Assembly (NCBI RefSeq): GCF_003074135.1 | Contig: NZ_PPDK01000003.1 | Coordinates: 372,001-436,000 of the forward strand | DNA: 64,000 bases | Direction of reading: 5' to 3' | Origin: Euzebya tangerina | GTDB taxonomy: Bacteria; Actinomycetota; Nitriliruptoria; Euzebyales; Euzebyaceae | In this document: positions 3,995 through 63,884 of the stretch, piece after piece | Numbering within the stretch: the stretch's first letter is position 1 | Layout of the letters: every line of letters begins with the position of its first letter | Program-made: the position numbers and the translations under genes | The notes under the pieces: model-generated | Told to the model about the DNA's origin: nothing | Databases searched by the model: none | Seen by the model: the letters and a program-made list of their open reading frames with translations, nothing else

Positions 3995-4043
3995 CTGGTG
4001 GGTGGACTTCCCCCCTCCTGAAGGGGCGTAGTCCACCCACCAG
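3995..4043. repeat. Dispersed palindrome, K family, copy A (orphan)
   Basis: CTGGTGGGTGGACT at 3995-4008 and its exact complement AGTCCACCCACCAG at 4030-4043, with a 21-nt loop. The same GTGGGTGGACTT stem occurs four more times near the nuclease gene at 46.7-47.8 kb, more than 42 kb away. Here it lies between the end of sucD and the PpiC-type gene, where it could also act as a transcript 3' end. Confidence 0.85.
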
Positions 4044-17795: not shown

Positions 17796-17842
17796 GCTGG
17801 AGTGGTGGGGCGCGGTCTGAGGTCCCTCAGGAGTGAGGCGGG

Positions 17843-17891
17843 CAGCAGAGTCAGGCGGTCAGCAGAGTCAGGCGGTCAGCAGAGTCAGGCT
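17843..17891. repeat. 17-bp tandem repeat, 2.9 units
   Basis: CAGCAGAGTCAGGCGGT at 17843-17859 and 17860-17876, then a partial unit CAGCAGAGTCAGGCT at 17877-17891. The third unit contains the stop codon of the adjacent minus-strand SCP2-like gene (17885-17887), so the repeat may have grown by duplication of that gene's 3' end. Confidence 0.9.
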
Positions 17892-55533: not shown

Positions 55534-56355
55534 GTGACGCCCGAGGAGGCGTTCGTCCGGATCCACGCTGGGTTGGACCGGGAGGGGCCGGGGTCTCCCG
55601 AGTCCACCCTCCGGGCCCTGCGACTGACCGGTCTGGCCTCGTCCGGCACCGCCGATTCGGCACGATCGGGGCCTGACCCACAGATGCCGGGGCCGGGGCA
55701 CGATCGTGCATCCGGTGGACTCAGCGTGCTCGACCTCGGCTGCGGCCCCGGAGCGCAGACGATCACGCTGGCCGAGGCGCTGCCGGACGCCCACATCGTC
55801 GCCGTCGACCTCCATCCACCCTTCATCGAGGAGGTGGAGCGGCGGGCCGCTGCTGCCGGGGTCGCCGACCGGGTCACGGCCGTCGTCGGCGACATGACCG
55901 AGCCACAGGCCGTCGCCCCAGCCCCCGTGGACCTGGTCTGGTCCGAGGCCGCTGCCTACTCGATCGGCTTCGACGTGGCCTTGCGGGCGTGGCGTGAGGT
56001 CCTCCGGCCCGGTGGGGTGCTGGCGGTGAGCGAGGCGGTGTGGGCGGCGCCAACCGTGCCGCAGGTGGTCTCGGACTTCTGGACCAGCGAGTACCCGGAC
56101 ATGCAGCCGGTGCAGCGACGGCGCGCGCAGGCGCTTCAAGCCGGGTACCGGCGGATCGGCGACTTCTCGCTGCCCCCGTCGGACTGGGAGGCCTACTACA
56201 GCCCACTGCGCGATCGTGTGGCCGAGCTCGCCGACCCGGGCGACCCTGGCATGTCGGAGGCGGTGGCCGCTCACGAGCGGGAGTTCGCGGTCTACGACGC
56301 GGGTGGTCCCTCGGCCGTGGGGTATCAGTTCTTCGTCCTGCGGCGGTCCGACTAA
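55534..56355 (+). CDS. SAM-dependent methyltransferase with a palindrome-encoded insert
   Basis: 273 residues, class I methyltransferase: motif I VLDLGCGPGAQTITLAEALPDA near residue 65, acidic strand-2 end AVDLHPPF, VVGDMTEPQ, DLVWSEAAAYSIGF and VLRPGGVLAVSEAVW. GTG at 55534 with GAGGGGG upstream. Residues ~43-59, between the N-terminal helix and motif I, are encoded by a copy of a dispersed palindrome also found beside alr. Substrate unknown. Confidence 0.85.
   Translation: MTPEEAFVRIHAGLDREGPGSPESTLRALRLTGLASSGTADSARSGPDPQMPGPGHDRASGGLSVLDLGCGPGAQTITLAEALPDAHIVAVDLHPPFIEEVERRAAAAGVADRVTAVVGDMTEPQAVAPAPVDLVWSEAAAYSIGFDVALRAWREVLRPGGVLAVSEAVWAAPTVPQVVSDFWTSEYPDMQPVQRRRAQALQAGYRRIGDFSLPPSDWEAYYSPLRDRVAELADPGDPGMSEAVAAHEREFAVYDAGGPSAVGYQFFVLRRSD
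55659..55710. repeat. Dispersed palindrome, G family, copy 1 (inside a coding sequence)
   Basis: GCACGATCG at 55660-55668 and CGATCGTGC at 55701-55709 are exact complements; between them lie GGGGCCTGACCCA and a GC-rich segment. The same order, including CTGACCCA after the left arm, is found at 63832-63884. It lies in frame within the methyltransferase gene and has no stop codon in that frame. Confidence 0.82.
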
Positions 56356-63021: not shown

Positions 63022-63795
63022 CTACCGCTCGACGAACTTGGCGGGACGGCGTTCGATGAAGCTGGTCATCGACTCCTGGCCGTCGCGGGTCTGACTGGAC
63101 GCGGCCATGACCTCGGTGGCGTAGTCGTAGGCCTCACGCAGCTCCAGGTCCATCTGCCGGTACAGCGTGTGCTTGCCCATGGCCTTCGACAGCTTGCTGC
63201 CGCGGGTCGCTCGTGCCAGCAGGTCCTCGCTGGCCTGGTCCAGCTCCTCTGCGGGCACCGCTCGGTTGAGCAGCCCCCAGTCCACCGCCGTCCGGGCGTC
63301 GATCGGGTCGCCGGTCAAGGCCATCTCCATGATCTGCTTGCGTCCGATCGCCCGCGCGACGGCGACCGAGGGGGTGTGGCAGAACCAGCCGCCCTTCCCA
63401 CCGGGCAGCGAGAACGTGGCCGAGTCGACGGCGACGGCGAGGTCGCAGGCGGCGACGAGTTGGCAGCCAGCAGCCAACGCCGGCCCCTGGACCCTGGCCA
63501 TGACGACCTGGGGGAGCTCGCCGATCAGCAGCATCATGTCGGCGCAGGCCCGCAGGAGCGCGCGCATCTCACCCAGGTGTCGGCCGGCCATGTCGGCGAA
63601 GTCGTGGCCGCTGGAGAAGACCGGCCCCTCGCCGGCGATCATGACCCCAGCCAGATCCGAGGCACCCGCATCCTCGAGCGCCTGGGTCAGCTGGGTGATC
63701 ACCTTGAGCGAGAGGGCGTTGCGCCGCTGGGGTATGGCCATCGTGATGGTCGCGTACCAGTCGCTGCGCGTGGTGCGGACGAGTGGCTCGGTCAT
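63022..63795 (-). CDS. Enoyl-CoA hydratase/isomerase family protein, ECHDC3-like
   Basis: 257 residues of crotonase fold: NALSLKVITQLTQAL, oxyanion-hole VFSSGHDFADM, VQGPALAAGCQLVAACDLAVA and FSLPGGKGGWFCHTPSVAVARAIGRKQIMEMALTGDPI, which follows the ECHDC3 pattern. The Glu residues of classic hydratases are not at their usual positions, so the reaction is unclear. It lies between the peptidase gene and alr on the same strand. Confidence 0.88.
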   Translation of the reverse strand: MTEPLVRTTRSDWYATITMAIPQRRNALSLKVITQLTQALEDAGASDLAGVMIAGEGPVFSSGHDFADMAGRHLGEMRALLRACADMMLLIGELPQVVMARVQGPALAAGCQLVAACDLAVAVDSATFSLPGGKGGWFCHTPSVAVARAIGRKQIMEMALTGDPIDARTAVDWGLLNRAVPAEELDQASEDLLARATRGSKLSKAMGKHTLYRQMDLELREAYDYATEVMAASSQTRDGQESMTSFIERRPAKFVER

Positions 63796-63831: not shown

Positions 63832-63884
63832 GTGCACGATCGGGGGCTGACCCACGCCACGGCCCAAACGTGCACGATCGTGCC
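63832..63884. repeat. Dispersed palindrome, G family, copy 2
   Basis: GCACGATCG at 63834-63842 and CGATCGTGC at 63875-63883, with GGGGGCTGACCCA after the left arm, as in copy 1. It lies 6 nt past the stop of alr and 37 nt upstream of the ECHDC3-like start, so it may also end the alr transcript. Confidence 0.82.

Follow-up and report, generated by a model that had tools for sequence, protein, structure and literature searches.

Palindromic repeats that lie both between genes and in frame within them have been described as RPEs (Ogata et al., 2000, 2002; via PMC10969869 and PMC3767692), and protein-coding palindromes have so far been regarded mostly as a special feature of Rickettsia, next to the intragenic REPs found in some other bacteria. 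These REPs, of the GTAG and CGTC type, are short palindromes near gene 3′ ends of which some lie within ORFs (PMC3733652), and MITEs form a third related system (review PMC10969869). A text search of PMC3733652 returned no mention of Actinobacteria, and no description of Euzebya repeats was found in the literature searched, which left most subscription journals outside its scope, so that an earlier description is possible. Here, we describe a palindrome of this behaviour in Euzebya, starting from a window of DNA, i.e., the whole stretch of 64,000 nucleotides that was analysed.

The insertion host is an ORF for a class I SAM-dependent methyltransferase on the plus strand of the window (55534–56355; 273 amino acids, GTG start), which matches Methyltransf_25 (Pfam, E 2.9e-17) and has the PDB relatives 3t7r, 3e7p and 3kkz. 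The 48-bp palindrome core (CACGATCGGGGCCTGACCCACAGATGCCGGGGCCGGGGCACGATCGTG, AB type) occupies 55661–55708 of the plus strand and encodes residues 43–59 (ARSGPDPQMPGPGHDRA), with motif I (VLDLGCGPG) coming next. Its left arm (55660–55679, plus) and right arm (55690–55709, plus) are 80% complementary at a spacing of 10 nt, and as single-stranded DNA the palindrome folds with −18 kcal/mol (z −3.4), which none of 200 shuffled sequences matched. A second copy lies on the plus strand at 63835–63882, in the intergenic space that separates alr from an enoyl-CoA hydratase gene (63022–63795, minus strand). It follows the alr stop codon (minus strand, about 63893) at a distance of about 10 nt and has the start of the hydratase gene on its other side; it is non-coding and folds less well than the methyltransferase copy (z −1.0 versus −3.4). 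The initial annotation had placed a palindrome at residues ~43–59 just ahead of motif I and a second, non-coding copy beside alr, and both statements held, the core of the latter being 63835–63882. Rfam gave no match anywhere in the window. Two other features were observed there, namely a short tandem repeat with a 17-nt period (17831–17890) and a strong isolated hairpin at 3999–4039 (TGGGTGGACTTCCCCCCT...AGGGGCGTAGTCCACCCA) that is not related to the palindrome family.

The methyltransferase copy is a lineage-specific in-frame insertion. The syntenic orthologue in the related genome G001, which is flanked by enoyl-CoA hydratase and tsaE as in the window, has exactly 25 residues fewer and is homologous on either side, and its comparison by tblastn and MAFFT defines a net insertion of 75 nt at 55639–55713 of the plus strand, corresponding to residues 36–60 (example peptide spanning the insert, GPDPQMPGPGHDR). 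As an orthologue scan of genome contigs gave a single usable full-length protein (L093), a phylum-wide search was used instead, so that 11 more distant orthologues, taken from the phylum and a gammaproteobacterial MAG, could be compared; these have 0–9 residues where the window protein has ~25–30, and homology resumes on both sides. The segment is therefore absent from 12/12 orthologues compared. The alignment of orthologues that had been proposed as a check supports the insertion, and a repeat-free orthologue encoding the same peptide, which would have refuted it, was not met among those compared; the proposed size of ~51 nt has to be corrected to a 48-bp core (55661–55708) within a net gain of 75 nt or 25 amino acids. 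Because this net gain exceeds the core, the exact ends of the element are uncertain. The flank GATTCGG (55654–55660, plus) fits the outer flank of many copies, which is weakly conserved as ATTCG followed by one base, and this left flank (ATTCG[A/G/T] in G000, the genome of the window; profile of 39 copies) suggests a unit somewhat longer than 48 bp.

Two alternative readings of this locus can be judged from the same comparisons. Translation might start inside or after the palindrome, leaving the repeat upstream and non-coding; an in-frame ATG within the element speaks for this, as does a codon-score gene caller that put the start downstream of it. Against it, the 35 residues ahead of the insert align in frame with the orthologue (most of RIHxGLxREGPGSPxSTxRAL is identical), residues ahead of the insert align in the same frame with PDB 3t7r (ERQGPGSPEVTLKAL), and the pre-insert residues form confident helices in an AlphaFold model, so that a late start is very improbable. 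Alternatively, the insert could stem from ordinary loop expansion or slippage with a chance likeness to the repeat, for which it can be said that orthologue loops vary here by up to 9 residues. This explanation can be all but ruled out: the copy matches perfectly a 22-nt arm pattern that occurs at 49 places in G000 and at none in a reversed control, and its two ends are separated by exactly 48 bp, the spacing of all other listed copies.

From the N-terminal helix to strand β1, PDB 3t7r has 8 residues and the window methyltransferase 32. The AlphaFold model (pLDDT 83.9, from an alignment of three sequences; TM 0.79/0.87 against 3t7s) falls below a pLDDT of 50 in one segment only, residues 38–60, between a helix (22–32) and a strand (64–68), which leads to the prediction that the insert forms a disordered loop at the surface. 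The suggestion that the repeat sits in a tolerated surface loop fits this model. The peptide encoded by the palindrome is probably a passenger without function.

While the palindrome was initially known from two copies in the window, it belongs to a far larger family with about 50 copies dispersed over this marine actinobacterium genome (4.78 Mb). A 48-bp pattern defined by both ends was found 52–54 times in G000 compared with 0 in the control, about four of the matches looking like chance; counted per strand, it occurs 52/54 times in G000, 29/26 in G001, 18/15 in G002 and 25/23 in G003, the last being Euzebya pacifica as judged from its plasmid NZ_CP031166.1 (100% identical over 6 kb), which also gives the genus as Euzebya. 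Genomes of other genera gave 0–6 matches (control 0, once 1), and the repeat is most likely specific to the genus Euzebya. The stringent pattern was absent from viral contigs. For gene context, 50, 32, 18 and 24 copies were used from G000 to G003, respectively; the counts for the relatives are lower bounds (at least 18–32 copies each). The core has the consensus CRCGATCG...CGATCGYG, with GATCCYG replacing the right end in many G001 copies, and every copy collected with both ends is exactly 48 bp long, in a search that permitted other lengths for G000 and in listings fixed at 48 bp for the relatives. Sub-types differ by species in their arms, with AACCCAC arms in G000, TCGCC..GGCGA in G001, and GCGTCG..CGACGC besides AACCC in G002 and G003. 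Tandem copies are spaced by 72–73 nt in G000 and 92–93 nt in G001. A likeness of GCCTAAC to integron attC boxes was set aside, as the copies are scattered over the genome and form no arrays.

Nine of the 50 copies in G000 lie within genes, a count that rests on a coding-potential analysis to which the methyltransferase and IolC, missed or started late by the gene caller, were added by hand. The hosts are CarB, HemW, a vWA protein, a DUF2520-like Rossmann protein, a hydratase related to 2-oxopent-4-enoate hydratase, E2, IolC, FbiC/CofGH and the methyltransferase, whereby the names DUF2520-like and vWA were inferred from sequence without an NCBIfam match. The copies occupy, among other places, the FbiC linker between two radical-SAM halves, the linker of the E2 acyltransferase, the IolC N-terminus and the hydratase C-terminus. 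The FbiC copy represents another palindrome type, likewise of 48 bp, with ends like CGATCGTGGA...TCCACGATCG (L268:1530-1577, G000:C3 about 451929-451976); at G000:C1:954737, 1201558 and 2486221, similar copies stand next to the first type, offset by 38 nt. For the IolC copy (L016, G000:C1:142879-142926), which overlaps the N-terminus, we observed an in-frame ATG, and it is conceivable that the palindrome supplies the start codon of this gene.

Orthologues without the segment exist in related genomes for all seven other genes compared (CarB, HemW, vWA, Rossmann protein, E2, IolC and hydratase; FbiC was excluded), which supports the earlier claim that these palindromes move and can land in genes. 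One exception concerns the vWA gene. Its orthologue in G001 is occupied at this position by another palindrome, which belongs to the G001 sub-type and shares the phase of the G000 copy (L170:551-598, G001:C22:11450-11497), and no palindrome is present there in G002 or G003; the site may be an old shared one with a changed element, or a hotspot.

The in-gene copies keep the reading frame and mostly add a similar 17-residue peptide to unrelated proteins. In G000, 8/9 are read in phase 1 and the hydratase copy in phase 0; seven of the nine, among them elements of both orientations, encode [A/T/S]RSG(P/A)(D/N)...DR in phase 1, and the FbiC copy, also in phase 1, encodes ARSWSSSARAEGLRDRA and not RSG. 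Counting independent in-gene sites, phase 1 is used in ~12 of about 18 (P about 0.004 against one third). Phase 1 is free of stop codons in 78/78 copy-orientations of G000 compared with about 49 for shuffled sequence, an openness that is largely built into the consensus (column-sampled mean 72), and hydrophilicity is highest for the phase-1 peptide (KD about −1.3 versus −0.1 to −0.4). As the core length is a multiple of three and the main phase is stop-free in both orientations, an insertion in that phase gives a hydrophilic, probably disordered peptide rather than a truncation. Symmetric AA′ copies make up 6/8 of the in-gene and 3/31 of the intergenic copies in G000 (Fisher P 0.0006), and the direction of this excess repeats in G002 and G003, not in G001. 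Both the phase and the arm-bias tests were picked post hoc, with the data already seen.

In the relatives, in-gene copies were called automatically (two in G001, seven in G002 and seven in G003) and not each was checked for an empty orthologue. The hosts include MurG in G001, a MacS-type kinase in G002, and MenD, LigD, a BtuC-like permease and an ABC ATPase in G002/G003. Six in-gene sites are common to G002 and G003, and at several of them the two genomes have different arm types although position and 48-bp length agree; L239/L256 and L241/L182 are the clearest cases. A cassette-like exchange by gene conversion, or re-insertion at one site, might explain these arm swaps; a similar pattern at shared sites is known for RPE-4/6/7 (PMC3767692). 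At an in-gene site of this pair (L243:1215-1262 versus L253:1241-1288), the element is 100% identical amid 20 codons on each side that are 78% identical at the DNA level, which may hint at conversion between copies or at a constraint on the DNA.

The majority of copies is intergenic, mostly within tens of nucleotides of gene 3′ ends, and intergenic copies are distributed over convergent, tandem and divergent gene pairs as 31:57:6. This siting fits selection against promoters and coding regions as well as a role at 3′ ends, both of which are possible and not separated by the data. Taken further, the palindromes could be functional sites, such as binding sites of a nucleoid protein or RNA hairpins at 3′ ends, which are selected at fixed places, are tolerated within genes and do not move. 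The constant length of all listed copies despite a varied interior, the depletion between divergent genes and the six sites common to G002 and G003 support this. It is nevertheless unlikely, as in-gene copies occur where orthologues have none, sub-type and copy number vary by species, and stem pairing within genomes shows no clear covariation above the level of shuffled partners (0.436 versus 0.431 in G000; barely above shuffled in the other genomes). Covariation as proof of a selected hairpin was dropped on the same ground; the arms do differ between sub-types.

We consider it likely that the palindrome in the methyltransferase gene belongs to a mobile repeat confined to Euzebya, which consists of the 48-bp core and a few bp of flank. 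Its hairpin, as single-stranded DNA or as a cruciform, would be copied to new sites by an unidentified enzyme, or alternatively would be captured during repair or replication; selection would then purge gene-breaking insertions and retain those that fall into a linker, a terminus or a loop. A selfish nature of the element, which the initial annotation implied by its Rickettsia analogy, and its continued movement both remain inferences; present activity is not shown, because no single species provided a site that is polymorphic or recently empty. A bolder reading, which can only be put forward tentatively, is a new kind of mobile hairpin of exactly 48 bp that spreads independently of a Y1 transposase, that swaps its arms like cassettes at chromosomal sites which stay fixed, and whose AA′ form is enriched within genes. 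If true, length and reading frame would stay constant while sequence and peptide change.

A rival among mobile elements is a REP with a RAYT/Y1 transposase as its driver, or a MITE that belongs to an insertion sequence in the genome, and the palindromic structure, the dispersal and the position near gene 3′ ends are usual REP habits (PMC3733652). This is again unlikely. Y1/RAYT (PF01797) was matched in 0/4 Euzebya genomes, with control genomes positive and only that transposase family searched; the ends (CACGATCG/CGATCGTG) lack a GTAG or CGTC tag; a full-length element with the palindrome ends was not seen among the matches of a non-exhaustive search; and no clear target-site duplication was found in comparison with diverged orthologues.

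As a mobile palindromic repeat, the Euzebya element can be placed beside the known systems. Like RPEs, it is dispersed between genes and inside unrelated genes with the frame intact, encodes a conserved peptide and has sites common to related species, sometimes with a different element type per site. Unlike RPEs, which measure 100–150 bp, it has a 48-bp core, its ends and arms differ (by inspection, without alignment to an RPE consensus), and it combines several interchangeable arm types with a constant length in a GC-rich actinobacterium. Homology to RPE-1 to RPE-10 is improbable, judged on composition without an alignment, so that the proposed likeness to Rickettsia holds for behaviour and fails for family membership. 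Like intragenic REPs, it is a short palindrome that lies near gene 3′ ends, is sometimes within ORFs and is rare between divergent genes, and like the CGTC class it has no known transposase (PMC3733652). Unlike REPs (20–40 bp), it is 48 bp long, has CRCGATCG/CGATCGYG ends and variable flanks without the GTAG/CGTC tag (CGTC is found solely internally, in the G002/G003 types), and no RAYT accompanies it in the four Euzebya genomes. With MITEs it shares the form of a small non-autonomous inverted repeat capable of in-frame fusions, whereas a target duplication was not clear against diverged orthologues and a search that was not exhaustive identified no insertion sequence as its parent. The palindrome in all likelihood behaves like RPEs and intragenic REPs and belongs to neither family, because length or tags differ and, for REPs, the transposase is absent too. 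A genus with several sequenced genomes offers a tractable setting to study peptide gain from repeats, spread without a known transposase and fixed element length. Next to Rickettsia and the intragenic REPs, Euzebya represents an independent case of protein-coding palindromes in a GC-rich actinobacterium, with carB among the host genes in G000 and murG, menD and ligD among those of its relatives.
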